From: Gimesia benthica
GTDB lineage: Bacteria; Planctomycetota; Planctomycetia; Planctomycetales; Planctomycetaceae
Reading direction: 5' to 3'
Length of the DNA: 64,000 nucleotides
Assembly (NCBI RefSeq): GCF_009720525.1
Contig: NZ_CP043930.1
Coordinates: 5,902,001 to 5,966,000, forward strand
The notes under the pieces are model-generated. The model ran no database searches and was not told the origin of the DNA. It was given only the letters and a program-made list of their open reading frames with translations. The position numbers and the translations under genes are program-made. This document shows positions 21,519 to 42,733 of this stretch, piece after piece; position 1 is the stretch's first letter; every line of letters starts with the position of its first letter.

Positions 21519-21546
21519 ATCGCGGATTTCGGTCCGCGATTTTTTT
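21519..21546 (+). terminator. Rho-independent terminator of the usp gene
   Basis: Perfect 8-bp stem ATCGCGGA/TCCGCGAT (21519-21526, 21533-21540), six-base loop, then six T. Confidence 0.93.
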
Positions 21547-21768
21547 ACGTAGTTGCAATCACGGACACGGGAGTAGCGCAAATCAAGTCCATGACTGAGG
21601 CTGGCGATTATTTTGATTTTCCAGAATGAAATCGAATACCGATTGTGTAGTGGAAGAATGTGACGTGGTAGACTGGTTGATAACTTTTTTGTAATCGATC
21701 GACCGAACGCTTTCTGTTCATCTAAGTCGAATAGAAAGTAAGTCAGTGCAGCTAATCAGGAACAGCCC

Positions 21769-22911: not shown

Positions 22912-22925
22912 AAAAGGAAATGACT

Positions 22926-23129
22926 ATGAAGAAAGTTGTCAGACACAACAGCCTGCTCAATAAACTGATTTTACTGGGGGGATTCATTCTGCTCGCATTG
23001 GGGATCTTCACCAACGGGTTGGTTTTACTCACCGGTGGGGTACTGATCTCGGGGGCGTTAATCGCCGAAACGTTAAACAGCCAACTGGCCGCACAGGTGA
23101 TTTACTCAGATGAGGAACAGACGGGGTGA
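22926..23129 (+). CDS. Small hydrophobic membrane protein
   Basis: A 67-residue protein. The ATG at 22926 is chosen over one at 22920 because the AAGGA ribosome site at 22914-22918 would be too close to the earlier codon. A basic N-terminus (MKKVVRHN) is followed by two short hydrophobic stretches, residues about 11-27 and 28-45, and a short polar tail ('YSDEEQTG'). It overlaps the next gene by four bases (GTGA), a sign of translational coupling. No family recognised; probably a membrane partner of the flanking TPR protein. Confidence 0.6.
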   Translation: MKKVVRHNSLLNKLILLGGFILLALGIFTNGLVLLTGGVLISGALIAETLNSQLAAQVIYSDEEQTG

Positions 23130-23671
23130 CCGCCGTCGAATATGAACCTTTGGTTTATCCCTCGGTCTGGCCACCTCCTGCGCTGCCGCCTCCTGTTCCG
23201 GAGAGCTGGGAAGCCAGATTCAAACGCATTCCCATTCTGGGCTGGTTTCCGGTCTTCTTACTAAGATATTTACGCTGGCAAAAGCATTATTCTGAGGTCT
23301 TGGAACCGATCGCTTTCGAGATTGCAGAGCAGCTTGAAGCACGCCCCAGGGTGGCTGGCTGGTCCAACAGATCTCGTTGGTTTTGTACAACACGTCATCA
23401 GAAAATTGCTGAAATCATTTCTGATGCGGTAGCGTTGGAAAAATTTCTGGTTGATTCGCCCCCACTCCATCCAGAGGATCCTTTTCCCTTGCTGTTCTGG
23501 GGACCCTTCGATGATCTGACACCGCTGATTGTGGGGGTCGAGATCCAGAAGGAATTCGAGGCCAGTCTTACCTCAGAGGGAGTTCTTCGGGCCTGGGAAG
23601 AAAACTGGACCCTGAGAGAGTTCATTGATTACTGCGATCAATGTATCTCACAGGGAACAGCAGAAACGTAA
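23126..23671 (+). CDS. Uncharacterised protein coupled to the small membrane gene
   Basis: A 181-residue protein starting with GTG inside the stop of the preceding gene (GTGA overlap). It opens with a Pro-rich stretch ('PSVWPPPALPPPVPESW'), continues with an amphipathic segment near residues 38-52 and has no membrane helix. The remainder is acidic and helical ('FDDLTPLIVGVEIQKEFEAS', 'LREFIDYCDQC'). No catalytic motif is seen and no family is recognised. Operon position implies a shared job with the TPR membrane protein and the 67-residue protein. Confidence 0.62.
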   Translation: MTAVEYEPLVYPSVWPPPALPPPVPESWEARFKRIPILGWFPVFLLRYLRWQKHYSEVLEPIAFEIAEQLEARPRVAGWSNRSRWFCTTRHQKIAEIISDAVALEKFLVDSPPLHPEDPFPLLFWGPFDDLTPLIVGVEIQKEFEASLTSEGVLRAWEENWTLREFIDYCDQCISQGTAET

Positions 23672-23851
23672 TTACTTCTTTTCCTGAGCCGCGCGGTGCG
23701 CTGATTCCGAATCAAAAACTTCCTGCTTTTCTTTTTCCATTTCAGATTTCACATCAGGGGTGATTTCTCCAGAGTCCATGGGAGCTTCAGATCCACAAGC
23801 GGAAAGCAGGCTGGCGGCAGCAAACAGAATGAGACTAGACGCAAATTTCAC
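23672..23851 (-). CDS. Small lipoprotein with GTG start, downstream of DUF1559 gene
   Basis: A 59-residue reading frame starting with GTG at 23851, too short to be noticed by simple length filters. GAGGAA lies six bases before the start. The N-terminus is a short basic/hydrophobic signal ending in the lipobox 'LLSAC' (Cys19), so the mature part is a 41-residue acidic tail ('MEKEKQEVFDSES') tethered to a membrane. Short lipoproteins like this often accompany DUF1559 genes in planctomycetes; here the DUF1559 gene ends 163 bases upstream on the same strand with a hairpin between. The stop abuts the stop of the convergent gene. Evidence is the ribosome site, the lipobox and the context; function unknown. 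Confidence 0.72.
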   Translation of the reverse strand: MKFASSLILFAAASLLSACGSEAPMDSGEITPDVKSEMEKEKQEVFDSESAHRAAQEKK

Positions 23852-23924
23852 AACAGGTTCCTCGAGAGTGTTACAGTGAAAATTTCAAAAATTATTCGAG
23901 CGAGAATACTTAAGCAAATATAAA

Positions 23925-23968
23925 CAGGGCATCATCAGGTTCCGGGGGGGATTCCATCAGATGCCCTG
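23925..23968 (-). terminator. Hairpin between DUF1559 gene and small lipoprotein gene
   Basis: Nine-bp perfect stem CAGGGCATC/GATGCCCTG with a 26-base loop, followed on the minus strand by a T-rich stretch. It could end most DUF1559 transcripts while letting some read into the small lipoprotein gene. Confidence 0.6.
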
Positions 23969-24014
23969 CGCTCACGATGATGCAGGCTTTTACGCAGTCG
24001 ATTCAAACGCTGCG

Positions 24015-25001
24015 TTAGAAGTTTTCCAGGGGTTCCCGGTCATCGGTCAGGCTGATACGTCGCATGATGTCGCCGTCGATGTTGTAGCTGATGAGGCGAA
24101 CTGAGCCATCGGCCAGACAGGCATTCATACCACCATCATGGGCGGAACCGAAGAAGGGATGCCAATTGGTCCAGGAGACGCCACCCTTGTCGGTAACGGC
24201 AACTGTATCAGTCGGCGCTTTCACGTCGGGCAGGGGAGTCAGGCCGTATTCTACTCCGGCGCTGGTCCGTCCGGCACCGTGGCGGATGACACATTCATCC
24301 CAGCCGGCGTTGACCCAGGGCTCGTTATCTCCCCCATCCAGACCGTGGCGATCTGGGTTGAGTGCTTTTTCCGCAACCATAATCGTATTCGAGGCACCGT
24401 CTTTAATGTCGTTGATGCGGACTTCTTTAGAGTCCGTTCTCACAACCACACCACGCTTACCGAGGCTGAGTGTCGAGGTGATACCACCCTCACGTTGACC
24501 ACCGTTACCGGCATAGTCGCTGCGGTAATAACCACTGCCATAAGAGGTCACTTTACGACGACTGGGGCAGTAGTAGGCTTTCACGCCCTTGCGTCCCACC
24601 AGCGGATAGGTACCAACCGGGTCAGCATCGGTTCCCAGGTCGTAAATCGTGGACTGTTCCATGTAAGGCAGGATGTGATACAGCCAACTCCAGCCGGCAC
24701 GTTCTGTTGCGTTACAGCAGGCGTAGGAAGAGCCGGCACCGTCGCGTGCACCAGTGGGCAGGCGGTCATACACATCATGGAAGTTATGGAATGCGAGACC
24801 AATCTGCTTCAGGTTATTCTTACATTGTGTACGACGAGCTGCTTCGCGGGCCTGTTGCACGGCTGGTAACAGCAGGGCAATCAGAATAGCGATGATAGCA
24901 ATGACGACGAGCAGTTCAATCAGAGTGAAACCCTGGCGGGAATCCGTTCGTAGTTGACGCGTACCGGTAGCGGGGGAAGAAATTGGACGTAACGTCCTCA
25001 T
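24015..25001 (-). CDS. DUF1559 pseudo-pilin protein
   Basis: A 328-residue member of the DUF1559 (SBP_bac_10) family, very common in planctomycetes. It begins like a type IV prepilin: after a basic leader the site G24|F25 is followed by '[16 protein letters not shown]', including the Glu at +5, the classic prepilin-peptidase substrate. '[20 protein letters not shown]' follows, then the globular domain, and the C-terminal '[15 protein letters not shown]' matches the H-X9-DG signature. Such proteins are thought to form surface or pseudopilus structures; the exact role is unproved. AAGGAG lies upstream of the ATG. It diverges from a second DUF1559 gene and is followed by the small lipoprotein gene. 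Confidence 0.92.
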
Positions 25002-25298
25002 TTTCCAGTCTCCTTAAAGTGAGAAAGTCGTATGGAATGTAGAGCAGCGTTTCAGTTTCTCAAGGCGGGGTGTGCCGGTATGGGTCTTGACTGACCTTTA
25101 GGAACAGGGCTCGGAGTCCCTTTCCTGATGCTGGATGGCATCCTATCGGGCGAGTGTTAAATAATGGTGAGCGAAGTGTGAATAGTTTTTCGTTTCCAGC
25201 GAACCTGTAAATCGACTTAAGCAAAGTGCACTGAATGACACAGGCCGAACCTGTTTTGTGATTGGTCGGGAGCACCATTTTAGAACGAATGGTTCCTC

Positions 25299-25327
25299 TT
25301 GACATAATACTAAAGTGTTAGTACAAA
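25299..25327 (+). promoter_or_regulatory. Promoter with embedded inverted-repeat operator (candidate BlaI site)
   Basis: TTGACA at 25299-25304 is a consensus -35; TACAAA at 25322-25327, 17 bases on, is a possible -10. Between them lies a perfect 6-bp inverted repeat, TACTAA-AGTG-TTAGTA (25308-25323). TAC...GTA dyads with ACTA-like arms are typical of BlaI/MecI/CopY operators, and a blaI-like gene is in the same transcript. The assignment to BlaI is inferred. Confidence 0.55.
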
Positions 25328-25372
25328 ACGTTACGTGAATGGATTCAATCGGTAAAAAAAGGAATTTCAGAC

Positions 25373-26296
25373 ATGCATCAGAGCCCTGCGGGACTTTGTG
25401 CCGGCTTACCTGACTCACAGCACAGCTGTGGTGGTGGGAGAGTACGGCGACAGAGATCAAACTCGCGTTCTCGCTCTGGATTTACCGTTCTGGAATTGCT
25501 GGTGACCTGCGGTATTATAGGCACACTCGTCAGTTTGATTCTACCTGCCGTTGGTTCCGCACGCGAAGCTGCCCGTCAGCTGCAGTGTAAAAATCAGCTC
25601 AAACAGATCGGAATCGCCATCCATTGTTATCACGATACCGCCGGTTGTCTTCCTGCGGGCTGGCAGTTCGAGTCTACGCAGAAATCGCTGTATAGCTGGT
25701 CAGTTCCACTGCTGCCTTACCTGGAGCAGCGGGCCGTGTATGAAATCGTTGATCGTAACCAGATACTGGCTCATCCTTTCAATCTAAGTGCCCGGCGGAC
25801 TTCCCTTGCTGGTTTTCTCTGTCCGTCTGATATTTTTGATCCAACCTTTATCCTGTATGAAGAGCAGCCTGCCGGTGGTGCAGGAGCAGCAATTATGGAG
25901 CTGCCAACCGCCAGTTATGTAGGAGTCTACGGTACAGTTGAAGCAGACGACGGGATGCCACCCCCAGCGGGGGACGGTGCGTTAGTGTATGCTCAGACGA
26001 TACGTTTTCGCGATTTGCAGCGGGGCTTAAGTAATACTGCAGTTGTGGGAGAACGCACCATGGCGATGGTCCCTTCCACCTGGCTGGGAGTTGATCTGGC
26101 AGGGGAAGATGCAGCCTGTCGAGTGACGGGAAGTAACATGACTTCTCCCAATTGTAAATTGTGTGACGAATGTGAATTTTCCAGTCGCCATCCGGGTGGT
26201 ACCAGTTTTCTGTTCGGCGACGGTCATGTTCGATTTATTTCAGAGTCCATCGATACAAAAACATATCAACAACTGGCATGCCGCTCAGGCCAGTAG
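25373..26296 (+). CDS. DUF1559 pseudo-pilin protein, divergent paralogue
   Basis: A 307-residue DUF1559 protein with AAGGA before the ATG. The leader is long and basic (about 36 residues, 'GGRVRRQRSNSRSRSG'), then the prepilin site G36|F37 with 'TVLELLVTCGIIGTLV' and Glu at +5. The globular part retains 'SAREAARQLQCKNQLKQIG' and the C-terminal 'HPGGTSFLFGDGHVRF'. Seven or more cysteines are unusual for the family. It is the first gene after the candidate BlaI operator and is followed 91 bases later by blaI and the M56 peptidase gene, so expression probably depends on that regulator pair. It is only distantly similar to its divergent neighbour at 24015. Confidence 0.88.
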   Translation: MHQSPAGLCAGLPDSQHSCGGGRVRRQRSNSRSRSGFTVLELLVTCGIIGTLVSLILPAVGSAREAARQLQCKNQLKQIGIAIHCYHDTAGCLPAGWQFESTQKSLYSWSVPLLPYLEQRAVYEIVDRNQILAHPFNLSARRTSLAGFLCPSDIFDPTFILYEEQPAGGAGAAIMELPTASYVGVYGTVEADDGMPPPAGDGALVYAQTIRFRDLQRGLSNTAVVGERTMAMVPSTWLGVDLAGEDAACRVTGSNMTSPNCKLCDECEFSSRHPGGTSFLFGDGHVRFISESIDTKTYQQLACRSGQ

Positions 26297-26387
26297 GATT
26301 ATTTTAAATACGTTATGTGGCCCGTCGGCCATGAGTGGAATGTCGATACTGACCAAAGTCTGCTGTCGATGAAAAGGAATGGTTGCG

Positions 26388-26762
26388 ATGACAAAAACTC
26401 ATCTGACAAAATGCGAACTGGAAGTCATGGATGTTGTCTGGCGCAAAGGCCGCGCTACCGTCCAGGAAGTGGTAGATTCACTTGAGCGTCCACTGGCTTA
26501 TACGACGGTAATGACAACGCTCAAGATTCTCGATGAGACGCGGGGCGTTCTCAGAAAGCAGAAAAAGGGGCGTGCCTACGAATATGAACCCACTGTCTCG
26601 CGTGAGATGATCAGTCGCAGTATGGCAGCTGATCTGACCGATCGGCTGTTTGGTGGTTCGGTAAAATCTCTGGTACTCAGCCTGGTAGAGGGCGATTCGA
26701 TGTCGCAGTCTGATATTGAAGAGCTGAAACTCGCCATCCAGTCACTGGAGGCAGACGCATGA
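26388..26762 (+). CDS. BlaI/MecI/CopY-family repressor
   Basis: A 124-residue winged-helix repressor. The ATG at 26388 is preferred since the AAAAGGA site sits about ten bases upstream; an in-frame ATG at 26379 is too close. The DNA-binding part is standard: 'LTKCELEVMDVVWRKGRAT', 'VQEVVDSLE', 'AYTTVMTTLKILDE' as recognition helix and 'GRAYEYEPTVSR' as wing. The C-terminal dimerisation helices include 'LVLSLVEGDSMSQSDIEELK'. The family binds palindromic operators as dimers and is inactivated by proteolysis. The stop overlaps the start of the M56 peptidase gene (ATGA), the usual BlaI-BlaR pairing. Its target is probably the site at 25308-25323. Confidence 0.94.
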   Translation: MTKTHLTKCELEVMDVVWRKGRATVQEVVDSLERPLAYTTVMTTLKILDETRGVLRKQKKGRAYEYEPTVSREMISRSMAADLTDRLFGGSVKSLVLSLVEGDSMSQSDIEELKLAIQSLEADA

Positions 26763-32883: not shown

Positions 32884-32957
32884 GCCCCCGTAGCTCAGTT
32901 GGATAGAGCAATGCTTTCCTAAAGCATAGGTCGCAGGTTCGAACCCTGCCGGGGGTA
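32884..32957 (+). tRNA. tRNA-Arg (anticodon CCU)
   Basis: A 74-base cloverleaf: acceptor stem GCCCCCG/CGGGGGT, D-arm with AGCTCAGTTGGATAGAGC, anticodon stem ATGCT/AGCAT with loop TTCCTAA (anticodon CCT), variable AGGTC, T-arm GCAGGTTCGAACCCTGC. CCA is not encoded. It remains intact because the integrated element brought a copy of the 3' half. This is the insertion site of the 9.8-kb island that follows. Confidence 0.95.
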
Positions 32958-32958
32958 T
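32912..32958 (+). repeat. Left attachment site, 47-bp copy in tRNA-Arg
   Basis: Bases 32912-32958, from the anticodon arm to one base past the tRNA end, are identical to 42687-42733. A 47-bp perfect direct repeat starting in a tRNA is the hallmark of tyrosine-integrase insertion. Confidence 0.95.
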
Positions 32959-33026
32959 TCTCAAACGCCTTTATTTATAGCCTCAATCCTGCTGGATCTC
33001 TTCGGCTACTTCCTCTGGCTGGTCAC

Positions 33027-33050
33027 TGATCACTGAATTGATCACTGAAT
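33027..33050. repeat. Left-end tandem repeat, candidate integrase arm sites
   Basis: Two perfect copies of TGATCACTGAAT in tandem, with a partial GGTCACTGAT before. Related tandem sequence occurs at 42543-42566 at the other end. Paired 12-bp repeats close to both att sites match arm-type binding sites for tyrosine integrases. Confidence 0.55.
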
Positions 33051-33055
33051 CCGCA

Positions 33056-33511
33056 TTAGTGATTGGATGTGGGTGTGTCCTGCGTTGTGCGTAGCCGTAA
33101 TGTCAGCGAACTGATCAAACAAGCCGCAGCCAGACTTACGGCGAAGAGCACAGGAAACCAATACGGTATCATCAGTCTGAACTGTCCGTTCGATATCCTG
33201 CCTGCTCCAAAGCCCAGCGTTGTCCTTATAGCTCGGTCCGTCCGCTGTTGTGTGGCATGCCATCGGTCCCCCTGATCCCAAGGACCAAGGTAATCAATGC
33301 CCACTCCCCCAACCGGCTGAGAGTGCAACGTGAGAACAATTCGTCCCACTCCAGACCAAATACTGAAGGGCTTGATGATGGGCGCCCTGCAGACGAACTC
33401 TTCGCTGCACGTAAAGCTGCGCATCCATAACCCCCCCAGCAGGACGCTTGTGAAACCACAAATGACGATTATATCGACTCTCATCTTTGTTATTGCTTTT
33501 GTGGTCGCCAT
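33056..33511 (-). CDS. Small membrane protein carried at the left end of the element
   Basis: A 151-residue protein with AGGTGA before the ATG. There is one hydrophobic helix near residues 10-28 and a second near 118-138 ('MIPYWFPVLFAVSLAAACLI'), giving two passes with a loop of about 90 residues between. The 'PYWFPVLF..SL.A' pattern just before the last helix is common in small planctomycete membrane proteins. It lies between the left attachment site and the integrase, where satellites and prophages carry accessory (lysogenic conversion) genes. It has no recognised catalytic motif. Real gene rather than a chance frame because of the ribosome site and the ordered helices. Confidence 0.6.
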   Translation of the reverse strand: MATTKAITKMRVDIIVICGFTSVLLGGLWMRSFTCSEEFVCRAPIIKPFSIWSGVGRIVLTLHSQPVGGVGIDYLGPWDQGDRWHATQQRTDRAIRTTLGFGAGRISNGQFRLMIPYWFPVLFAVSLAAACLISSLTLRLRTTQDTPTSNH

Positions 33512-33683
33512 CTAGATTTTCACCTGACTCAATGCAGACCGAATTATTTTGGTATTTACTACTAAGCTGAAATTTCACATATAGATTAGACTGGAACCCT
33601 ATCCAGGCATGGATTGTAACCGTTGCGGTTTTCTGTGTCTAAAACAAAGTGATTGTTCCCACGTTATAATTTAAGTAGAGAAG

Positions 33684-34871
33684 CTAGGCTATCTTGTTTA
33701 TTGTATTTTCAGGGGTCTGATTTGGACTCGACTCCGCATCTGCAGCCCAGATCGCCTCTGCTGCTTTCTGTGCATTTCTGCCCACGTAATACTTCATTGT
33801 GGTATCAATATCGGAATGTCGCATCAGCAGCATGAGAACGTCTGGCATCACCTTCAGGGACCAACGTTGACCAAAAGCCCGGCGCAAATCATGAGCAGAC
33901 GCATAGCGGGGTTTACGCTTCCCGGTCTCCTTATCAATGTTCCCTTTGTCACCTACGGCAACATTGGCTTTCTCTCCGATCTTGGCAATCTGCTTTGAGA
34001 CGGTTGAAGAAAGCATTCGTTCGGTTCGTTTCTTCCGGGCCAGTGGATTGAATACAGGGCCTGTTCTCTCGTCCTCTGGTACTTCATCAAGTAGAGCAGC
34101 GAATTCAGGGACCATCGGCAATAGTCGGTCCCGGTTCCCCTTTTCCGATTCTTTGCGGATTCTGAGCACTGGACGCTTACCAGAGAAGTCTACGGACAAT
34201 TTATCCTCACGGTCCCAGTGCAGATCCAGGGCCTCAGCCAGACGCAATCCAGAGCACCACAAGCCCCGAAGCAGGAACTTCCATGATTCGGCCTGTTTCT
34301 CACCGCAGACACTAGGAACGGCTGTTAGCATCCGCTCAAACTCTTCTTTGCAGAGAGGACGCCCGCGCATTGCCTTCTCTTCTCGGATACGCTTGAATTT
34401 TGGGAATCTCGGAACGGTCTTCAGCAACCCGATAGACTGCGCCCAGTTCAGAGCAGACCTGATGTAGATCAGATAGCCTTTGATTGTGACGTCTTCAAGT
34501 CCATCCTCCCGCATGTCCTTCACCATTTTGCTGATCGCGTTTGCGTCGATCTGAATCAGCAGATTCGGCTTGATGTACTCATCAACCTGACGAAACACAA
34601 CCTTTGCTTTCTCGGCTGAAGTGTCCGCGAATCCGGGCAATACTTCTGTTTCATATCGTTCCTTGAAGTCCTGCCACTTGGCTTTTTGTGGGTTGTAGTA
34701 TCCTCCTTCGTTGATCTCCTTTTCCAACCTCAGAGCAAAACGCTCCGCATCTCTCTTGATTGCCGTTCCTGTGCTCTTGCGACACTCCCGCAGGTTTACC
34801 GGATCAGTCCACCGGGCATAATAGTTATTGCTGTTGCTACGCTTGACGATGATTACTTTTACTGCCTTCAT
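33684..34871 (-). CDS. int: Tyrosine site-specific integrase
   Basis: A 395-residue phage-type integrase. The ATG at 34871 has AGGGAG nine bases upstream; an upstream in-frame ATG at 34901 lacks this. An N-terminal core-binding (SAM-like) domain spans about 45-150. The catalytic domain carries the expected residues: Arg in 'CSGLRLAEAL' near 220, 'AHDLRRAFGQRW' (His-x-x-Arg) near 330, 'MRHSD' (second His) near 356 and the nucleophile Tyr in 'TMKYYVG' near 365. Recombination should occur in the 47-bp tRNA-Arg repeat. It faces the tRNA from 726 bases away, the typical position. Excision would also need the small HTH protein at 41172. Confidence 0.94.
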   Translation of the reverse strand: MKAVKVIIVKRSNSNNYYARWTDPVNLRECRKSTGTAIKRDAERFALRLEKEINEGGYYNPQKAKWQDFKERYETEVLPGFADTSAEKAKVVFRQVDEYIKPNLLIQIDANAISKMVKDMREDGLEDVTIKGYLIYIRSALNWAQSIGLLKTVPRFPKFKRIREEKAMRGRPLCKEEFERMLTAVPSVCGEKQAESWKFLLRGLWCSGLRLAEALDLHWDREDKLSVDFSGKRPVLRIRKESEKGNRDRLLPMVPEFAALLDEVPEDERTGPVFNPLARKKRTERMLSSTVSKQIAKIGEKANVAVGDKGNIDKETGKRKPRYASAHDLRRAFGQRWSLKVMPDVLMLLMRHSDIDTTMKYYVGRNAQKAAEAIWAADAESSPNQTPENTINKIA

Positions 34872-35060
34872 TGCTATGTCGCTCCCTTTTTCTACCTGCA
34901 TCAGAAAACGGCCTCACCAGTGCCGCTCTGACGCGATTAGATTTAATATTGGTGTCAATGTTCAATAAATGCCGATATCGCATTACAGGCGATTCTGTGG
35001 CCTCCTGCGATGTATGGCATGAAATCCCATCCGGCATCCCTGCCAGACTGGGAGAATCGA

Positions 35061-35627
35061 CTACTGCAGATCACCGGGGCAGATCGACCGCGCGATATAA
35101 GCCCGCTTGCGTTTCTCGCCATTGGTCGGATTATCAAGACGGTTATTCAGCTCGCCTACAATCTGTTTACACTGCTCACGGCCTCCATCAATCGTGATGA
35201 ATGCCGGGGGTAGATCGAATTCTGATCTTGGCTTAAAGGGAGTGTTTAACGCTACGCTGAGGTTTGCGTATCTGCCGCCCACTCGAACCCGGATTAACCA
35301 GTGAGACACATAGCCATCTTTACTATTGGCGATTCGCTCACGGTTCAGGATCGCTGCCACCTCTGCCGCAGTCTTGGCTTTCCTGTAGGTCTGCGTATGG
35401 GGAGGAACTGACCGCCAGCAATTAGGCTCCCAGTCATCTGGCACATTTACGAGATACACTGGCCAGTTGTGGCGTTTGGCATCCAGTCGCAATACATCAT
35501 CAGGAGAGGGATTGCCAAAAGGGGGAGGTGTCACCGGCTCCAGTGCTTCCCAGTCTGTTGACCGCTGCAGTAGAGCTTCCAGGGGGGAGTGAGTGTCACA
35601 AACGCAAGAGGGGTTAAGAGTGTCCAT
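35061..35627 (-). CDS. Element-encoded protein of unknown function
   Basis: A 188-residue protein whose ATG at 35627 has GGAAAGG eight bases upstream. The middle region is regular ('RHNWPVYLVNVPDDWEPNCW', 'AKTAAEVAAILNRERI', 'SHWLIRVRVGGRYANLSVA'), a pattern reminiscent of short single-domain DNA-handling or host-takeover proteins in phage satellites, but no family can be named. There is no membrane helix and no signal peptide. It lies between the integrase and the terminase gene, with 189 bases to the integrase start. A PICI-style interference or regulatory role is a guess from position alone. Confidence 0.6.
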   Translation of the reverse strand: MDTLNPSCVCDTHSPLEALLQRSTDWEALEPVTPPPFGNPSPDDVLRLDAKRHNWPVYLVNVPDDWEPNCWRSVPPHTQTYRKAKTAAEVAAILNRERIANSKDGYVSHWLIRVRVGGRYANLSVALNTPFKPRSEFDLPPAFITIDGGREQCKQIVGELNNRLDNPTNGEKRKRAYIARSICPGDLQ

Positions 35628-36108
35628 AATTGACACCTTTCCACACGCTGAGAGAGTACAGCGCGTAAAAAAGAGCGCAGGCACTCAAAAAGAGCTTCTA
35701 AGGTGGATAAGAGGCCACCCGCGCGCCTCACGGCTAACGCACTCTTTCCAAGTGCCTGCACTCCAGTCTTCTTATTGGATTTTAGAATGTAACTCTTATG
35801 TGCCTTTCGGCTTTTAGAAGGATGCAGTATCCCTGCTGTCCTCGCATCCGTCAAGCCATATCTCCGGCCAGTGTTCAGGCATTGGTTATGCTGGTTTCTG
35901 ACTTTCACACCACTGCAGACACGTCGACTGCCGATATCTCCCCTGAAATCAAAGTAGTTTACTGGAAGATGTCGACACCCCCCATAGAATCCAGCATTCC
36001 CACCAGATCCAGCCTCTGACCTGTTCACCATTGCGCGATTACAGATCATTCCTTGCCTTGGCTGGCACTGCTTCAGATTCCGCTTATCGCGCGATGGTGC
36101 CCAGTCCA
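35628..36108. other. Gap in the island next to the P27-type terminase gene
   Basis: 481 bases with no convincing gene. On the minus strand an open frame of 192 codons begins in the TAATG that ends the terminase gene, at the position where a large terminase would lie, but it contains no terminase motif and overlaps the neighbouring gene. The left part holds the long hairpin at 35677-35759. Confidence 0.5.
35677..35759 (-). other. Long structured element: 9-bp and 6-bp nested stems
   Basis: GCAGGCACT (35677-35685) pairs with AGTGCCTGC (35751-35759); three unpaired bases on each side later AAAGAG (35689-35694) pairs with CTCTTT (35742-35747). Inside, GGTGG/CCACC (35702-35706, 35715-35719) forms another hairpin. 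On the minus strand a T run follows. It may be a terminator, a non-coding RNA or a packaging (cos/pac) site. Confidence 0.5.
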
Positions 36109-36579
36109 TTAGCCCCTTCTCCTGTCTCTGGTGGCAATGCCTTTTTTCTTTGGCTGTGGATTAACTACCTTCAGTCCCTTCCTGGTCGCTGGAGTGAGTC
36201 CGAACTCCTTTTCCAGCTTCACCAGTTCAGAACAGAGGTTACGCTCAATCGCAACCTGTGGCGCTGTCTTCGGACCATGTTGACCTTCGACCGTTACGCC
36301 GTTTTCCTCGATCCAGTTGCAGACCTCCTGCCACCGATTGACCATGTAACAGTATCTGACCAACGGCAGCTTGTAGACGGGGGAGATTATTCCCATTTCG
36401 TCCAGCTGTTGAACGATCTCATCCCAGATCAACCGCACCGCTTCCGGCATGTCTGCAGGCGCGTCTGGTCTTCCCTCTGGTGTCTTCGCTTCGTCGTCTG
36501 TTGAACCATGTCTATCTGCCCTGAAAGTCCCGGCCAGGATATGATCCTCCACTGAGTCTGGTCTACGTCCCCTTACCAT
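36109..36579 (-). CDS. P27-family phage terminase small subunit
   Basis: A 156-residue protein with AAAGGAG before the ATG. It has the P27/TerS_4 layout: 'MVRGRRPDSVEDHILAGTFR' at the start (short basic N-terminus), 'APADMPEAVRLIWDEIVQQL', 'SPVYKLPLVRYCYMVNRW' and 'LEKEFGLTPATRKGL' near the end, with helical spacing typical for HK97-type small terminases. Such proteins recognise the cos or pac site and deliver DNA to the large terminase and portal. No large terminase follows, so it would have to work with a helper phage's motor, as in PICIs. Upstream is an HNH nuclease, the standard partner of HK97-type cos cleavage. Confidence 0.85.
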   Translation of the reverse strand: MVRGRRPDSVEDHILAGTFRADRHGSTDDEAKTPEGRPDAPADMPEAVRLIWDEIVQQLDEMGIISPVYKLPLVRYCYMVNRWQEVCNWIEENGVTVEGQHGPKTAPQVAIERNLCSELVKLEKEFGLTPATRKGLKVVNPQPKKKGIATRDRRRG

Positions 36580-36679
36580 GATTATCTACTCCTTTGTTCT
36601 TCGTGGATTGCTTTAATTTTGACTAAAAAGATACGTGAAACGGTTGGTGGTTCTGAGTCTAAAAAGCCCTAGCGATTAT

Positions 36680-37018
36680 TTAGCCCCCGTACCCCCGTAC
36701 CCCCGCACGCCGGTAGTTGTCTCTCCCTATCTTCATTCCGTTCGATTCGCTCGCTGTCTTGCTGCTATGGCATGACTTGCACAGCGATTGATGATTGGAC
36801 GAATCCCAGAACAACGGATCATCCGGCCCAGTCACTGGAATGATATGGTCTGTCGCCTCTGCTTCACGTCCACAACTCACACATTCGGGATACTCCCTCA
36901 GTCTCTGCCTGCTGTACTTGCCCCATCGGTAGCCATACCCCCTCTTGCTGGCTGACTGACGGTTATCAACCCGTTTGCTCTTACGTCTGGCTCCTATCAG
37001 TTTTGGTGCTCTTGGCAT
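36680..37018 (-). CDS. HNH endonuclease
   Basis: A 112-residue protein starting at the ATG at 37018 with AGGGGGG upstream; an in-frame ATG ten codons earlier lacks a ribosome site. The HNH fold is clear: 'YPECVSCGREAEATDHIIPV' holds the first Cys pair and the DH catalytic unit, 'SSNHQSLCKSCHSSK' the Asn-His and the second zinc pair. The N-terminus is strongly basic (PRAPKLIGARRKSKR), suited to DNA binding. Phage HNH proteins of this size beside terminase genes stimulate cos cleavage by the terminase. Its place between two TerS-type genes makes packaging the most likely role. Confidence 0.88.
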   Translation of the reverse strand: MPRAPKLIGARRKSKRVDNRQSASKRGYGYRWGKYSRQRLREYPECVSCGREAEATDHIIPVTGPDDPLFWDSSNHQSLCKSCHSSKTASESNGMKIGRDNYRRAGVRGYGG

Positions 37019-37122
37019 TGCATACCCCCCTAAGTGAAAATAACGCACGCGAAAAAAGCAGATGCGATGTGTGGTTCAGGTCTTCGCAGCCTCTAGCGAT
37101 GAAAAGCCCCCACCCCTGTGAC

Positions 37123-37605
37123 TCAGCTTGTAGACTCTGTCGCGTTCTCGTCGTCTGGTAGTTCGTTTGCGATGTATTCCATAGCCTGGTCCCATGCATC
37201 CAGCAGGATCGCTAACGCCTCGTTCCCGAACTGCCTATCCAGTTTCTCACCGGCATTCTTGATATGCCCCAGAGCACCGATGAAAGCAGGCTTAATTGCA
37301 TCCAGATTGACCATCTGCTGCCGCCGCTCCTGCAGATCCATTTCAGCAAGATCAGCCTTCAAGCCCCTGTATCGCTCCAGATTGTCGCTGTCGCCACCGG
37401 CAAGCATAGGATCGGATGATTTGAACCACTTGTTGGCCTTCGCCCATTCCACCATTTCAGGTAGCGGGTATCTGCCCCTCTCACCGGGGCAACCCTCTGC
37501 GAGCCAATATGAAATAGTTCTCTCTGAGACACTAAAGAAACGAGCACAACCGGCTATAGTCGATTCATTAAAATCACTGTCAAAACCTGAAGATGAAGAA
37601 GCCAT
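37123..37605 (-). CDS. Nu1-like small terminase / DNA-packaging protein
   Basis: A 160-residue protein with AAGGGG before the ATG. The N-terminus has a MerR/Nu1-like winged helix ('TIAGCARFFSVSERTISYWL', then 'GCPGERGRYPLPEMVEWAKA'). A coiled-coil-like region follows ('LERYRGLKADLAEMDLQERR'), and the end ('AFIGALGHIKNAGEKLDRQF', 'ILLDAWDQAMEYIANEL') is helical. This is the layout of lambda gpNu1 and similar small terminases: HTH for cos recognition plus helices that contact the large subunit. Having both this and a P27-type TerS in one 10-kb element is odd; one may redirect packaging and the other may act in regulation. Confidence 0.72.
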   Translation of the reverse strand: MASSSSGFDSDFNESTIAGCARFFSVSERTISYWLAEGCPGERGRYPLPEMVEWAKANKWFKSSDPMLAGGDSDNLERYRGLKADLAEMDLQERRQQMVNLDAIKPAFIGALGHIKNAGEKLDRQFGNEALAILLDAWDQAMEYIANELPDDENATESTS

Positions 37606-37698
37606 TTTTTACCCCTTGTTGATGAAAATTCTTGAGATATCGAAGCACCTCAGCTAGTAAAAGGCTGGAAAGGACCCGCCCGCCAGCCATGCCTTTTA

Positions 37699-39579
37699 TC
37701 AGTCCAGATATTCCAAAAAATCCCCCAGATCCTCCGGCGCTGTGGCTGATTCTGCTAACGGCTGGGAGTCGTCGTTTCCGTCACCAGTGTCGACAACTCC
37801 ACTAATATCGCTTGTTTTCTGGTCAGATGTCGGCAGTCGACGTGTAGACTTAGTGAATAACTGAAATACTCGGGATGGCATCCCCTGTTTATTCGTGTCG
37901 ATGCTTGCCCACTCTCCAACGCTATTCTTAACCAGCTCATTCAATGCCGTTTCTGCATCCTCAGCAGTTCTGAATCCCCGCAAAGATCGCTGAACGTCTC
38001 TAGGCTTCACACTGCCGCCCTTTCGACGTACAAAGCGAATCAACCGTTTCTGCTGCTTCTGCTGTGGTGTCTCTTCAATGCCATCCTCAGAGCCGAACAG
38101 ACGGTATACGCGCTTCGATTCATTCTTAAACCACTCTGCCAGCTCGATAGCGTTAAGCATGGTCTCAGCGCTGACCTGATCAGGAATCCGGCTTTCAGTG
38201 ATATTCTGGACATAGTGGAAGATCAGAGAGAGCCTAAGCGGTATCTCTTCCAGCTTTGACCATTCAGCCGCAAGATCGCCATTCATGGTGAGAGCTTCGG
38301 CATTGTGCCACCTGTGGAACTTCTTATATTCCGTCTTGGCTTCATTGCTGAGATATATCGGGAGTGGATTGTATACGCCCGGCTCCGGTTCCTCTGGTTG
38401 TAGTTGGTCGAGCAGCTCGACAACGTGCATGAGCGCGTCTTTGATCTCATCCGGTATGCCTTTGCCCGGATACTGCTTCGCTGATCTATCGGGATAGAGC
38501 TTCAGGAACCGAGACATAAAACCGCTTTCACGATAGCTGCCGCACATGGTCCGCTTGTAGATTTCCGGCTGAATGGTCCCGCCAATGCAGATTGAGGAAT
38601 TAGGGACAAACAAATCGTTTGGATCATGCTTCCTGGCAACCTGAATCAATCCAAGGTTATACCCTTCCAGGAGCACAGCCTCATCAGATCCTTTTGAGCC
38701 GTTGTACTTGTTAAGATTGCTCATCAGCTTTGATAGCTCATCATTGATCAGGGGAACGCCTTTCCGGTTATGTTTGAGCATGTGAGCTAATCGCTCAAAA
38801 GTAACATCCCCCGCAATCTTATCCACAATGCGCGGCTCGTCCGGTTTCTCTGGCTCATCTGGTGGCTGGCCTTCACCTCTGGCAACTTCTTTGAGATATT
38901 CTTTCATCCTGATTTCATAGATCGCCTTTCGTTTGTCGTACTCCTCCAGCTTTTCAACATTCCTGATATGTGCTTTGGCCTGCAGCTTGTAGAGTGGAGC
39001 AGTTGCCAGCTTGAGAGCGGGGGATTTCATACTACCGCTGTTTGCGATTACAACGCTCCAGAGAGTCGCAGGAACACGCCAATCCCGAGTAGGCATCAGC
39101 ACCCGCGCCGCACCGATCAGGGAAGCCATGACGATTAACAACGGGCCTGCGATAAAGGAAAGATCACATTTGAGAGACTCGCTCCCGGCCATGACATAAT
39201 TTCTCATGACTGCAGGAAAGCAGTGAACTGGGAACGGCTGACACTCGACCTGCGTTTCATCGTCTCCGGTTTCGTCTTCTTCGCTGTCGTCGGTCTCATC
39301 CTGTGCTGGTTCATCATCGACCGGCTGGAATGGTGCAGCCTGGTCAATCAGTTGCTGTAGCGTCTCTTTCGGGCTGATTCCTTTCTGGCTGTTATCGTTC
39401 ATTTGATCTCTGATGTCGCGTCCGTTGGATTCTGTCACCGGCCCATCAGGAAAAGACAGACTGACCTCAGAGGCATACGGGAAAACAGACCGCGCGAACG
39501 CCTCCGCTCCGTCTCTGCCGGATATATCATTATCACCGAACACAATTACTTTCTTACCTTCAATCAGTTCCTTCAACAT
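37699..39579 (-). CDS. DUF3987 helicase-like protein with partial TOPRIM N-terminus
   Basis: A 626-residue replication protein. Residues 1-60 are the second half of a TOPRIM domain: 'GKKVIVFGDNDISGRDGAEA' has the metal-binding DxD-type strand. Residues about 130-500 form the DUF3987 (YfjI-like) ATPase/helicase region, with a Walker A-like loop 'IANSGSMKSPALK' near 180 and 'GVPLINDELSKLMSNL' near 275. The C-terminus ends in a winged-helix-like and acidic tail. In many phages and satellites the zinc ribbon, TOPRIM and DUF3987 parts are one chain of 800-900 residues. Here its ATG overlaps the end of the primase frame by seven bases, with AAAGGAG ten bases upstream. Likely role: origin opening and primer synthesis for the element. 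Confidence 0.85.
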   Translation of the reverse strand: MLKELIEGKKVIVFGDNDISGRDGAEAFARSVFPYASEVSLSFPDGPVTESNGRDIRDQMNDNSQKGISPKETLQQLIDQAAPFQPVDDEPAQDETDDSEEDETGDDETQVECQPFPVHCFPAVMRNYVMAGSESLKCDLSFIAGPLLIVMASLIGAARVLMPTRDWRVPATLWSVVIANSGSMKSPALKLATAPLYKLQAKAHIRNVEKLEEYDKRKAIYEIRMKEYLKEVARGEGQPPDEPEKPDEPRIVDKIAGDVTFERLAHMLKHNRKGVPLINDELSKLMSNLNKYNGSKGSDEAVLLEGYNLGLIQVARKHDPNDLFVPNSSICIGGTIQPEIYKRTMCGSYRESGFMSRFLKLYPDRSAKQYPGKGIPDEIKDALMHVVELLDQLQPEEPEPGVYNPLPIYLSNEAKTEYKKFHRWHNAEALTMNGDLAAEWSKLEEIPLRLSLIFHYVQNITESRIPDQVSAETMLNAIELAEWFKNESKRVYRLFGSEDGIEETPQQKQQKRLIRFVRRKGGSVKPRDVQRSLRGFRTAEDAETALNELVKNSVGEWASIDTNKQGMPSRVFQLFTKSTRRLPTSDQKTSDISGVVDTGDGNDDSQPLAESATAPEDLGDFLEYLD

Positions 39580-40367
39580 TTGATCGCCGCTCCTTTCGCG
39601 CCGCAGACGTTTGTGATCACTGTGAATCCTTCAGGCAGTTGTGAGTAGATCGCCAGTGCATCTGGTAGCCCTTCGGCCTTTATGACTGTCTCAGCAGATA
39701 GGAAAGACGCCCGATCACCAAAGAAAATTAGACCGTCTTTAGATCCTGCCAGAAGGTGAGTTTTCCTCTCTCCTGCCGTCTTGGTCGCTGGGAAGTGCTG
39801 ACCGTCAACCCGATACAGAATCCATGCTGACGGCTCACCAGTGCCGTTGTAAGCAGGGAACGCCACACACTCGAACCGCTCCGATTCTGGCCTCCATGCT
39901 GGCCAACTGCAGAGCTTAGCCCCTGCCGCCTCGACCGCTTCAGGTGTCGCTGGTGGCTTGTGTGCTGCCAGCTCGCTGAACTTGTCCCAGTCCTGATCCA
40001 GGATCTGTATCTGATCAATCAAAGGCTTCTTTTTGGCTGGTGGCTTCTGTTTCTTCACTGGCTGGGAGTGGGAAACATTCAGGTATTCCCCGATCCTGTT
40101 TACCGCTTCGGAAAATGAACACTCAAGCCACCATTGAACGGCTGAGATAACATCTCCATTCCCTTTATTGAAACACTGGTTACAGATCAGAAAGCCCTTT
40201 GCGGAATCGAACCGGCAACGGTCCTTGCCTCCGCACTTGGGGCATTCACAATGCTTGCCAGTAAGTGATTGAGCAGGCACCCCAAAATAGAGCAGAATTT
40301 CTTCCGCTCTACCTTGGGCCTGACTCACCACCGTATCCTTATCGTAGTGAGTCGTTTTCTGGATCAC
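39573..40367 (-). CDS. Zinc-ribbon primase with first half of a TOPRIM domain
   Basis: A 264-residue protein. Cysteines at 40, 42, 45, 62 and 65 ('HCECPKCGG', 'LICNQC') form the Prim_Zn_Ribbon of P4-alpha/phage-type primases. Residues about 140-250 hold the catalytic-core lead-in, and 'TVIKAEGLPDALAIYSQLPE' starts the TOPRIM fold with the catalytic Glu. The chain ends 'NVCGAKGAAIKC' exactly where the TOPRIM continues in the next frame as 'MLKELIEGKKVIVFGDND'. So the domain is divided between two overlapping frames (minus-strand ATGTTGA at 39573-39579). One extra base would join them. Either natural coupling, programmed frameshift or a mutation or assembly error explains this. It is itself coupled to the gene upstream by ATGA. 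Confidence 0.85.
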   Translation of the reverse strand: MIQKTTHYDKDTVVSQAQGRAEEILLYFGVPAQSLTGKHCECPKCGGKDRCRFDSAKGFLICNQCFNKGNGDVISAVQWWLECSFSEAVNRIGEYLNVSHSQPVKKQKPPAKKKPLIDQIQILDQDWDKFSELAAHKPPATPEAVEAAGAKLCSWPAWRPESERFECVAFPAYNGTGEPSAWILYRVDGQHFPATKTAGERKTHLLAGSKDGLIFFGDRASFLSAETVIKAEGLPDALAIYSQLPEGFTVITNVCGAKGAAIKC

Positions 40368-40777
40368 TCAGCACCTCCATCGAATCCCTGATTCAACTCG
40401 GATTCGTAAGCCTCTGGATTCTCCATCCTGAGAGCTTCCTTGTACTGCCCGATATTCTCAGCCAGATAGGACGCCCAGACCTTATTCAGCAACGCCAGAT
40501 CGTCTATGAACTCATCAACGCCGATCACACGCGGTTTGATTGCGTGTTGTGTCGTCATACAACGCCTGAACTGATGGAAGTCTTCGTGTTGATCGTAGTC
40601 CATTTGAACGTCTACGATTTCGAATGGTCGCACCGGATCACAGGAGAACTTGTTTTCATAGACGCGAACGCGAAGCACAACCGCTCCCCAGTCCGATTGA
40701 TCGACGAGCATTGCTACAACGTCGATCTCGCGTACTACAACCTGTTTTAACTCTGTTGAATTGATGTCTTTATTCAT
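40364..40777 (-). CDS. Element-encoded unknown protein coupled to primase
   Basis: A 137-residue acidic protein with a strong AAGGAGG ribosome site eight bases before the ATG. Its stop overlaps the primase start by four bases (ATGA), so the two are translationally coupled and probably act in one process. Sequence shows a beta-rich N-terminal half ('QVVVREIDVVAMLVDQSDWG', 'VVLRVRVYENKF') and a helical C-terminus ('LLNKVWASYLAENIGQYKEA'). No known motif. A replication accessory role is inferred from the coupling only. Confidence 0.65.
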   Translation of the reverse strand: MNKDINSTELKQVVVREIDVVAMLVDQSDWGAVVLRVRVYENKFSCDPVRPFEIVDVQMDYDQHEDFHQFRRCMTTQHAIKPRVIGVDEFIDDLALLNKVWASYLAENIGQYKEALRMENPEAYESELNQGFDGGAE

Positions 40778-40789
40778 GGTCGCACCTCC

Positions 40790-41095
40790 TTAAACCATCT
40801 CTGGGACTGCAGCAGTGATCAACTCACGCCATAAACGGGATCGAGTGGGGATACACTGTTCCTGCTCGATCTCTGGGACATAGGGGATTACCGCATGTTC
40901 CAGGGAAACGACCGTTTGAAACTGGGGATAAGAATAGAATTGACTCCCGGCCATAGTGGAATTGAGCGTAAAGAGAATGCCGGGAATGGTGAGACTGACG
41001 GACACTTCTGCAGGCTCTGTGCTCGTCAAGTAGATGGAGTGGAAAGTAAACCTGCTTTTCCGTAATGGGGTTGAGTTCTCTGAATTATTCAACAT
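40790..41095 (-). CDS. Element-encoded small unknown protein
   Basis: About 101 residues from the ATG at 41095; the frame is open further upstream, overlapping the next gene, so the start is chosen to avoid that overlap. It ends 12 bases before the ATG of the coupled unknown gene, inside which a ribosome site lies. Beta-rich sequence ('SRFTFHSIYLTSTEPAEVSV', 'QTVVSLEHAVIPYVPEIEQ') with no charged DNA-binding surface or membrane helix. Not recognised. It is likely part of the replication operon. Ribosome site is weak. Confidence 0.5.
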   Translation of the reverse strand: MLNNSENSTPLRKSRFTFHSIYLTSTEPAEVSVSLTIPGILFTLNSTMAGSQFYSYPQFQTVVSLEHAVIPYVPEIEQEQCIPTRSRLWRELITAAVPEMV

Positions 41096-41171
41096 AATGT
41101 AATTGTTCTTTCGTGTGTCCAATGGATACAAAGTTGCAACCCCGGAGCCTGCCCGCTCTGGGGTTGTTTCG

Positions 41172-41402
41172 TTATGCAGTCTTGCTGCCCAGTGATTCGA
41201 GATACTCAATAAAATCAGAGCCTTTCACGAATTTCCTATTTCCGGCCTGATGCATCTTCAGACCGCCTTTACGGGCGCTCCTCAATGCCCAGTCTTTCAG
41301 CCCAGACGCCTTTTTAAAGGCCTCGAGTGAATACAGCTTGTCCGGTTCAATCTCACCGACTGGAACCGCTTTTGATGTCTGCTGGCTTGCTGCCCTCACC
41401 AT
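41172..41402 (-). CDS. Excisionase/MerR-like small DNA-binding protein
   Basis: A 76-residue protein with AAGGAG eight bases before the ATG. The sequence 'LYSLEAFKKASGLKDWALRS' followed by 'ARKGGLKMHQAGNRKFVKGS' and 'FIEYLESLG' matches the winged helix of Xis/AlpA/MerR-like proteins: helix, helix, wing with Arg-Lys, last helix. Such proteins direct integrase to excise the element or regulate its early operon. It is the likely excisionase of the island, placed at the far end from the integrase gene. It could instead be an early regulator. Confidence 0.72.
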   Translation of the reverse strand: MVRAASQQTSKAVPVGEIEPDKLYSLEAFKKASGLKDWALRSARKGGLKMHQAGNRKFVKGSDFIEYLESLGSKTA

Positions 41403-41482
41403 GATTGAATCTCCTTACTTTTCGTTACTGAGGTTTACCGTTAATGGGCCTTTGTTGCCCCTGCGATACCCTCATTAAAACG

Positions 41483-41510
41483 AAAAAACCCCGCCTGAAA
41501 AGACGGGGTT
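41483..41510 (-). terminator. Rho-independent terminator between element genes
   Basis: Perfect 7-bp stem AACCCCG/CGGGGTT (41487-41493, 41504-41510) with a ten-base loop. On the minus strand it ends in six T, closing the transcript of the gene at 41554-42429 and separating it from the replication operon. Confidence 0.9.
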
Positions 41511-41553
41511 AATTCGGAAACGGCTATAGATTTACGTTCTGTTTACAAACTAT

Positions 41554-42429
41554 TTACATATGATCGGGATGCCACAACTCCTTCCATTTCCGGGCCATGT
41601 TCAACTTAGACAGCCACACTTTAGCAGCGGGGGTTCCTTCAAAGAACTTTCTGGCTAACTGGCTCTCTTTTCGGGGCTCCCAGTTGTCGCGTAGATGCAT
41701 GCACAGATCCAGTACATCACCCTCTGGTGATTTTTTTCGACTATTTACATTTTTTACATTCGATTCGGATGAAGAATCTAGCTGACTACTCTCTTCTTTC
41801 GACCTTAATATTTCCGAATCCAACTTACCTTTTTCATCTGCCGCAGAGAGATACCCGAACTTCTGCAGCTCAAACACTTCTTTCAGCTTGATGATAGTTT
41901 TAACGTTCAAGCCATATTCCGAGAGAAGACCAACATGGAATCGAATGTAATTATATTTGAACTCGTCTGCAGCTTCCTCTCCATGCTCTGCTTTGTGTTC
42001 ATCGTACAACTCACTCCTGTAAGCTTTATCAGAAAAGAATCCATGCCGCAGATTTGAAATCAATCTCAGCAGATGAATGAGCGCCTCTACTGCCGTATTG
42101 AATGTTTCCTTGTCAATCTCGACCTGATGCCGCTTGTACGATATCTGTTTGCCGTTTGCCCTCTTAATATCAACTACGACCTGTGACAACCCGGAGGAAT
42201 CAAAGTTATCTAGTGCTGCTTTTTCCCATGAATGATCTGTACAATCTGATGCGAACTCATCAAGTCTCATTCTGGTGGAGGCACATTCAACCGGATTCCG
42301 CTCGTCTCTCATGATGTCATCAATAAGAATCGAACTTAGCTTAAGCCTTCTGATTGAATGGGTGAACCATTTCTCCAGCCCGTTGAAGTCGCTCGTGTAC
42401 TTAACAGGCTGCTTGCTGCCTTCCGTCAT
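41554..42429 (-). CDS. Element-encoded protein of unknown function (291 residues)
   Basis: The ATG at 42429 has AAGGGA seven bases before it; an in-frame ATG at 42459 does not. The protein is charged and helical with short patterns such as 'FTHSIRRLKLSSILIDDIMR', 'ALIHLLRLISNLRHGFFSDK' and 'SQLARKFFEGTPAAKVWLSK'. A Ser/Glu/Asn-rich linker ('KEESSQLDSSSESNVKNVNS') joins two parts. No family is recognised. Being the first gene at the right end, alone in its own transcript and closed by a strong terminator, it is a good candidate for the element's master regulator or a defence/interference gene. That remains an inference. Confidence 0.65.
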   Translation of the reverse strand: MTEGSKQPVKYTSDFNGLEKWFTHSIRRLKLSSILIDDIMRDERNPVECASTRMRLDEFASDCTDHSWEKAALDNFDSSGLSQVVVDIKRANGKQISYKRHQVEIDKETFNTAVEALIHLLRLISNLRHGFFSDKAYRSELYDEHKAEHGEEAADEFKYNYIRFHVGLLSEYGLNVKTIIKLKEVFELQKFGYLSAADEKGKLDSEILRSKEESSQLDSSSESNVKNVNSRKKSPEGDVLDLCMHLRDNWEPRKESQLARKFFEGTPAAKVWLSKLNMARKWKELWHPDHM

Positions 42430-42542
42430 GTCATCATCCCTTAAGTCCGGGCTGGCCATCTCTGGTATGACGGATGATCTTTCACACCAGAGACGACCAA
42501 CGGGAGGGCTACTCCGCGCCCGGTCAAATCAAATATTCCAAC

Positions 42543-42566
42543 TGATCACTAGATTGATCAACACTC
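42543..42566. repeat. Right-end tandem repeat, candidate integrase arm sites
   Basis: TGATCACTAGAT followed by TGATCAACACTC, a 12-bp spaced pair like the tandem TGATCACTGAAT at 33027-33050. It lies 121 bases inside the right attachment site. Confidence 0.5.
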
Positions 42567-42686
42567 AGGCATCCGTACGCCTTTCAAGTATTATACAGGG
42601 ACTGTTCTCAGGATGCAGCAGAGGTTACAATACGTGCTGTTTCCTGTGATCGCCCTTCGGCTAAAATATGATTATCTGCGTTGTGT

Positions 42687-42733
42687 TGCTTTCCTAAAGC
42701 ATAGGTCGCAGGTTCGAACCCTGCCGGGGGTAT
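42687..42733 (+). repeat. Right attachment site, 47-bp copy of the tRNA-Arg 3' half
   Basis: Identical over 47 bases to 32912-32958. This is a tRNA fragment, not a functional tRNA gene, since the acceptor 5' side and D-arm are missing. It marks the right border of the island. Confidence 0.95.

Follow-up and report, generated by a model that had tools for sequence, protein, structure and literature searches.

We analysed a 64,000-nucleotide stretch of the Gimesia benthica genome (contig NZ_CP043930.1, positions 5,902,001 to 5,966,000; hereafter the window) and propose that a 9.8-kb island within it, E1 (window positions 32912-42733), is an intact-looking integrated phage satellite that would rely on a helper phage for packaging of its DNA at a cos site. 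We put the probability of this reading at about 0.74. At the level of sequence it draws on a precise insertion in a tRNA gene, an integrase of the element's own, primase/helicase-type replication genes, and a small terminase subunit (TerS) gene together with an HNH endonuclease gene, in an island in which no virion genes were found. A first-pass annotation of the window had called the island a satellite-like element in a planctomycete, and empty insertion sites in relatives, a second element (E2) resident in the same genome, kin of the same size and the lack of virion genes in E1 all agree with that proposal. Below, G000 denotes the source genome (one contig of 8.03 Mb, C1), other G numbers the genomes of relatives and L numbers fetched loci.

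Insertion of E1 in tRNA-Arg(CCU)

The integration target is a tRNA-Arg(CCU) gene (32884..32957, plus strand, anticodon CCT). Its 3' part forms one copy of the attachment (att) repeat (32912..32958, plus strand) and the other copy lies at 42687..42733 (plus strand), giving a repeat-to-repeat spacing of 9775 bp. The perfect 47-bp repeat reported at first pass holds up, the copies being identical at 47 of 47 positions. The gene on the right flank of E1 is present in 15 of the 17 genomes of the genus, that of G. benthica included, and in the 14 others the tRNA-Arg(CCU) site was empty in eight, occupied or altered in five (G001, G002, G009, G011 and G013) and cut by a contig end in one (G015). For the three closest relatives (G004, G008 and G012) the flank can be aligned from its first base, at 95-96% identity, with the whole tRNA gene adjoining; because the tRNA there meets the right flank directly, we regard E1 as a clean insertion. 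At the five further empty sites the flank alignment begins 102-148 bases in, and the spacing is too small for any insert.

At the G013 site about 25 kb is present, of which one end is E1-like and the remainder received no identification. The G009 site holds just 0.93 kb between att repeats, consisting of both E1-like ends and one 153-aa gene (L148/L166), without the core from the integrase gene to the first gene of the row. In G011 (L153/L161) a homologue of this gene and an att repeat are placed in tandem with an E1-like element, and the corresponding gene of E1 is a 151-aa open reading frame (ORF; 33056..33511, minus strand) with no family match. It is possible that the arrangement in G009 and G011 represents a mini-element moved in trans.

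Gene content of E1

Every named gene of E1 lies on the minus strand, and together they make up 83% of the island. Four of the functions named at first pass were recovered as Pfam matches, namely the tyrosine integrase (33684..34901; PF00589, 1.5e-12), a primase zinc ribbon (39573..40367; PF08273, Zn_Ribbon_Prim, 5.7e-7; phrog_510, 3.3e-23), a DUF3987 helicase-like protein (37699..39579; PF13148, 3.5e-62; phrog_2373, 3.6e-37) and the HNH endonuclease (36680..37018; PF01844, 5.1e-6; phrog_589/144), for which the ATG at 37018 was chosen by eye over a GTG at 37048. The claim of two small-terminase types stands for the P27-type TerS (36109..36579; PF05119, 2.1e-18; phrog_83, 5.3e-24) and is softer for the second, a Nu1-like small-terminase or DNA-binding protein (37123..37605) with kin in G010 and G014, which is assigned from phrog_57 (1.7e-7) and had no match in the Pfam scan. 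The protein described as excisionase-like (41172..41402) is a small helix-turn-helix protein whose HTH_17 match falls below the cut-off (E = 0.04), yet it is conserved in kin and 78% identical to its counterpart in a sister element. The row also holds u207 (35061..35684, annotated start uncertain), a gene with a predicted alpha/beta core that serves as a marker of most of the family described below.

Pfam and PHROG profiles recognised no gene for a large terminase subunit (TerL), portal, capsid or tail protein among the named genes of E1, the two TerS genes aside. A tblastn search for a capsid remnant with four satellite capsid proteins returned chance rows alone (best E 0.40), and comparison with 17 TerL references, a TerL-like reference and a portal reference likewise yielded no match in E1. 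The reported absence of virion genes is upheld by these searches, in which no overlooked capsid or portal gene came to light.

The remaining ORFs of the row have no assigned function. They comprise the first gene, of 301 aa (41554..42459), with weak homologues in the corresponding position in G012 and G013 and a structure prediction of too low confidence for use (pLDDT 48), a 101-aa ORF (40790..41095) with homologues in G009, L167 and, seen in translation, G012, and a 137-aa ORF (40364..40777) with a homologue in L167. Other ORFs longer than 100 aa partly overlap named genes, the largest (192 aa) being without a family match. A defence-gene scan of six E1 genes and of the 101-aa and 151-aa ORFs gave one weak row, for the HNH protein; an Rfam scan of E1 gave tRNA rows and a single chance row; and promoter and terminator scans gave no more than shuffled sequence did.

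E2 and the wider family of elements

The E1 integrase has one other match in G000, and this leads to E2 (L003:1535-11472; G000:C1 about 16534-26471), an element of 9857 bp at tRNA-Lys(CTT) whose recognised genes lie on the plus strand of L003. E2 encodes a Prim-Pol primase-helicase, a P27 TerS, an HK97-type major capsid protein (PF05065, 1.2e-30) and a double u207; neither a TerL nor a portal was found in it. Matching proteins of E1 and E2 share 28-44% identity. An E2-like element occupies the same tRNA gene in G003, with an integrase 80% and a capsid protein 67% identical to those of E2, and a search for u207 in G003 gave no match.

Within the class, u207 was matched in 11 of 297 genomes, seven of them in the genus. 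Among the 13 u207 loci that we fetched, nine have an integrase adjoining both a relative of u207 (a weak one in L202) and a tRNA gene. The tRNA genes are Lys(TTT), Thr, Arg(TCT), Val, two each of Met and Arg(CCU), and Leu (weak, in another genus). Together with the elements of G003, G010, G013 and G014, these make 13 kin elements that adjoin tRNA genes in relatives. Five elements bounded by att repeats of at least 44 bp measure 9775, 9857, 9159, 10119 and 9462 bp; one of them is L132, from another genus, which carries a P27 TerS and a capsid gene and in which u207 was not recognised. The element of G014 is larger, its outer genes lying about 18 kb apart, with no att pair established, and that of G012 has an 18-bp repeat alone, 8.8 kb apart, with no tRNA found.

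The head and packaging genes vary from member to member, from HNH and TerS in E1 and TerS and capsid in E2 to a capsid-protease fusion in L190 and a head protease with a Nu1-like TerS in G014. TerS genes recur in E1, E2, G003, G010 and G014, and head genes in E2, G003, G014 and L190. Between u207 and the capsid-protease fusion, L190 also has a TIR-effector-like gene on the opposite strand (L190:10835-11746; PADLOC row at 2.3e-7, no Pfam match), possibly an anti-phage cargo gene.

A divided TOPRIM region and the question of decay

The first-pass annotation listed the primase and the DUF3987 protein as separate proteins. Both are present, and we amend this in that the two ORFs overlap by 7 nt (39573-39579) and divide a TOPRIM region between them, its first half, located by eye, lying in the primase ORF and its second in the DUF3987 ORF. 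The same region is part of a single protein in G014 (896 aa), G012 (892 aa) and L168 (905 aa). G003 and L167 share the split of E1, position included, and there too the ORFs overlap. Since three splits fall at one position although the DUF3987 proteins that share the split are as little as 37% identical, the arrangement looks more like a retained two-gene form than like decay. L167 (JAJFIP010000138.1) and L168 (JAJFIP010000217.1), two contigs with E1-like genes, come from a metagenome-assembled genome labelled Emcibacter. A prepilin-type protein start reading 'TLIELL' is common in planctomycetes, and because one flanking gene of L167 has a start of this type, both contigs were probably mis-binned.

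A row such as that of E1 might also be left by an ordinary temperate phage that has lost its TerL, head and tail genes: HNH and P27 TerS are adjacent as in phi105-type phages, the row ends where a TerL would come, and the TOPRIM frame is split. We consider such a remnant distinctly unlikely in view of the perfect att repeats, the high coding fraction, the kin of the same size at other tRNA genes with differing gene subsets and the recurrence of the split in G003 and L167. No parent prophage of which E1 could be the degraded form appeared in the loci inspected, which are a part of all loci: the 37 loci drawn from 20 DUF3987 and 20 unpaired-P27 contexts contained no TerL when compared with the TerL references. 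The degraded-prophage reading was also disfavoured by the empty sites, by the kin elements and by the TerL pairing described next.

P27 TerS genes and a candidate cos site

P27 TerS genes were counted across 149 genomes, where 65 rows reduced to 63 places after merging of rows within 600 bp (G093:C1:3940135 and G047 being below the curated cut-off). With PF03354 as the sole TerL family searched across the genomes, 33 of the 63 places are paired with a TerL within 5 kb and 30 are not. The pairing used 52 TerL rows; the remaining TerL rows, judged by eye, have no P27 on the same genome or contig or lie more than 400 kb away. We viewed the surroundings of 23 of the 30 unpaired places, E1 and E2 among them, and comparison of the other 21 with the 17 TerL references revealed no TerL. 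Two unpaired places (G041:C40 and G010:C308) are perhaps so merely through a contig end.

At the DNA level E1 and E2 share two stretches at E<=1e-5, sites A and B, both outside the named genes. Site B (37035..37079, minus strand) is identical at 41 of 45 positions to the site before the P27 TerS gene of E2. In both elements it ends 16 nt upstream of the start codon (ATG) with which the packaging genes begin, that of HNH in E1 and of P27 TerS in E2. Allowing up to 3 mismatches, site B had two matches in the 149 genomes, both in G000, and none in 100 shuffles of the window. We regard site B as a candidate cos because its placement resembles the genome ends of two phages. The cos annotated in phi105 is situated 52 bp ahead of TerS, and the HNH gene is near the opposite end of the genome; Marinobacter phage AS1, which tops the list of P27 relatives (29.6% identity), has a linear record with TerS beginning at base 70 and HNH at the far end. 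On this resemblance, identification of site B as cos is probable, by a modest degree. If E1 and E2 share a cos, the same helper is expected for both. Across genera, cos-like similarity slightly exceeded the best of 100 shuffles in only two comparisons, E2 with G057 (15, shuffles up to 12) and G057 with G068 (14, shuffles up to 13), and no use was made of it.

Several points weigh against E1 being a packaged satellite with its cos at site B. Site B was not found in the relative in G003 or in the other kin inspected, and it could instead control the packaging genes as a promoter or operator, or have been exchanged as a patch between the two elements. A G-rich run beside it is no general mark of P27 loci, reaching the threshold in 1 of 16 TerL-paired loci, where 466 upstream stretches gave a background of 2.4%; from the 30 loci entered, 5 yielded no ORF and were dropped. 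PF03354 TerL occurs in none of the 17 genomes of the genus, and no helper was found; three exact patterns of site B were absent from viral_contigs. The u207 kin L191, L192 and L194 have no recognised packaging genes. Finally, the split TOPRIM frame of E1 could signal decay, though three separate elements have it.

Some of these points would suit a plasmid-like or other integrative element that is not packaged at all, with TerS and HNH as passengers and site B as an operon promoter. No helper is known, and in L191, L192 and L194 u207 keeps company with ParB-like genes, TerS not being recognised there by BLAST with the references used or among those of their genes that were scanned with profiles. 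The recurrence of TerS genes and of head genes among the family members listed above, the narrow size range and the cos-like placement of site B speak against such an element, and we judge it unlikely.

The search for a helper and a resident head-tail cluster

Megablast of the whole of E1 against 50,697 phage records gave no match, nor did u207 there, and the relatives of the P27 and HNH proteins in these records (117 and 208 records, respectively) are all below 60% identity. In viral_contigs the u207 profile and the DUF3987 protein gave pattern matches and no relative, and one exact pattern of site A was not found.

The source genome does contain a head-tail cluster (G000:C1 about 4058000-4081600; L218, L219). 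Of the 17 genomes of the genus, all 17 have portal matches and 16 encode a TerL-like protein. In G000, G001 and G007 the cluster is syntenic, with TerL-like, portal, HK97 capsid, tail tube and sheath-like genes and, among the genes interspersed, an aminotransferase gene. The identity of the cluster TerL tracks flank-gene identity (r = 0.95 over 13 of 16 relatives, G006, G010 and G015 being left out for missing or partial values). By these comparisons the cluster looks like a vertically inherited locus resembling a gene transfer agent (GTA). It may be decaying in some genomes: PF05065 capsid is lacking in 5 of 17 (G004, G005, G006, G012 and G013), the portal gene has an internal stop in G003, and it is fragmented in G008 and G016. 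In G008 two portal parts lie 43 kb apart on one contig (G008:C10 about 131980-174940), as if the gene had been interrupted by an insertion. A second head-tail locus, near tRNA-Met in G016 (G016:C1 about 1911000-1933000; L230, L231), encodes a TerL-like protein 46-49% identical to that of the cluster and is perhaps a prophage belonging to the parent lineage.

E1 and E2, with their shared cos-like site, might then be satellites of this GTA-like locus, commandeering it through TerS/HNH in the case of E1 and the capsid protein in that of E2, in place of an infecting phage. The near-universal presence of its portal and TerL-like genes, its synteny in three genomes, its divergence with the host and the absence of the P27-type (PF03354) TerL from the genus would fit, and satellites of 9-10 kb fall within the 5-15 kb stated for GTAs in PMC9632790. 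We nevertheless hold this to be very improbable. A phage helper is favoured over the cluster because P27 TerS, where paired, accompanies PF03354 TerL, and because the E2 capsid protein is only 21% identical to the cluster capsid; the cluster TerL-like protein has no Pfam family match. The possible decay of the cluster also counts against it.

u207, integrases and site A

The predicted structure of u207 has a mean pLDDT of 75.2, with most of residues 71-207 above 90; Foldseek searches of the model against PDB and BFVD gave no match at E<=0.001. In an integrase tree the u207-bearing elements fall in two separate clades. The integrases mostly cluster by target (four at Arg(CCU) and two each at Lys(CTT), Arg(CCG) and Met), with the exception of L132, which is at Arg(CCG) yet lies distant on a long branch, and long branches are something the tree tool warns of.

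Site A (34928..35061, minus strand), between u207 and the integrase gene, is 85% identical in E2 over 137 columns and 91% over 101 bp. Besides E1 and E2 it is conserved in G003, while the rest of the 149 genomes gave no match at E<=0.001. It contains an inverted-repeat motif (AATCGC..GCGAT, window 34955-35002) that aligns before the integrase gene in 12 elements; a pattern look in six more elements found none save one unconvincing row. Site A may be an integrase control site or a replication site.

A model for mobilisation

We propose the following sequence of events for a satellite of this kind. Once a helper phage infects the cell or induces the element, E1 would be excised by the integrase and the small helix-turn-helix protein and replicated by the primase-DUF3987 pair. 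P27 TerS and HNH, acting at site B, would recruit the large terminase of the helper, so that E1 DNA would be cleaved at cos and enclosed in heads made by the helper, probably small ones, that carry the tails of the helper. E2, which shares the cell and would share the cos, would use the same helper and contribute its own capsid protein, perhaps setting head size as Ccm does. E1 and E2 would aid packaging differently, the former by HNH and TerS and the latter by TerS and a capsid protein.

If this is correct, planctomycetes host satellites of one family, which exchange packaging modules among themselves and occupy a variety of tRNA genes. The 45-bp candidate cos common to E1 and E2 offers a handle for the helper, since a phage carrying it is the predicted partner, and genes might also be transferred by a second route, through the head-tail locus found across the genus. 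We found no paper on planctomycete phage satellites or phage-inducible chromosomal islands (PICIs) in the open-access text of PubMed Central; an earlier description elsewhere is possible.

Comparison with known satellites

E1 resembles PICIs, and cos-type SaPIs such as SaPIbov5, in its fixed att site with a dedicated integrase, its putative excision function and its primase/helicase-like replication module, in which no initiator or origin was recognised, and in having TerS or cos for packaging without a virion set. The att sites of PICIs are described as never taken up by prophages (PMC6092414); of the 14 sister sites of E1, five are occupied or altered, that of G013 with its 25 kb among them. 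Its 9775 bp are close to the mean PICI size of 9.5 kb in a later survey (PMC10803314), an earlier account giving typically about 15 kb in Gram-positive cocci (PMC6092414). It differs in regulation. Gram-positive PICIs are described as having divergent halves, with integrase and repressor genes opposed to excisionase and replication genes (PMC6092414), whereas the named genes of E1 are all on the minus strand and the recognised genes of E2 all on the plus strand of L003. Further differences are that no master repressor was recognised in E1, that the family has its own marker gene, u207, and belongs to the phylum Planctomycetota, and that HNH and TerS of E1 stand beside the candidate cos. The first-pass statement that E1 has exactly the PICI gene mix was thus too strong, the divergent layout being absent and some kin carrying a capsid or head-protease gene. 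As far as its genes indicate, E1 would function like a cos-type PICI, yet we do not class it as one because the trait of a divergent regulatory layout fails.

The lone capsid gene of E2 finds a parallel in Ccm of SaPIbov5, an HK97-fold capsid homologue involved in the formation of small capsids and unable to replace the capsid protein of the helper (PMC5052747). Capsid genes in E2, G003, L190 and, in another genus, L132 also recall the capsid-forming PICIs (cfPICIs), which make their own capsids (PMC11389934). E1 differs from these in having TerS alone and no capsid, portal or large terminase gene. The capsid set of cfPICIs consists of capsid, portal and terminase genes. Since searches of the elements described here found neither a portal nor a TerL, these elements would need the packaging motor of a helper.

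PICMI, P4-like elements and PLE, compared by description and through the phage-record searches, are likewise small integrated islands that depend on a helper; PICMI is reported to have three core proteins and to be packed as concatemers in full-size heads (PMC10803314). Pasteurella phage Pmp7 (OR544138, 10.7 kb) unites integrase, primase, excisionase, TerS and HNH in a small element, and its HNH is among the best relatives of that of E1 (54.5% over query residues 18-88); it differs in encoding a large terminase beside TerS. In more general terms E1 has the features of a phage satellite, in which TerS, HNH and a candidate cos would give an element without full virion genes the means to use those of another.

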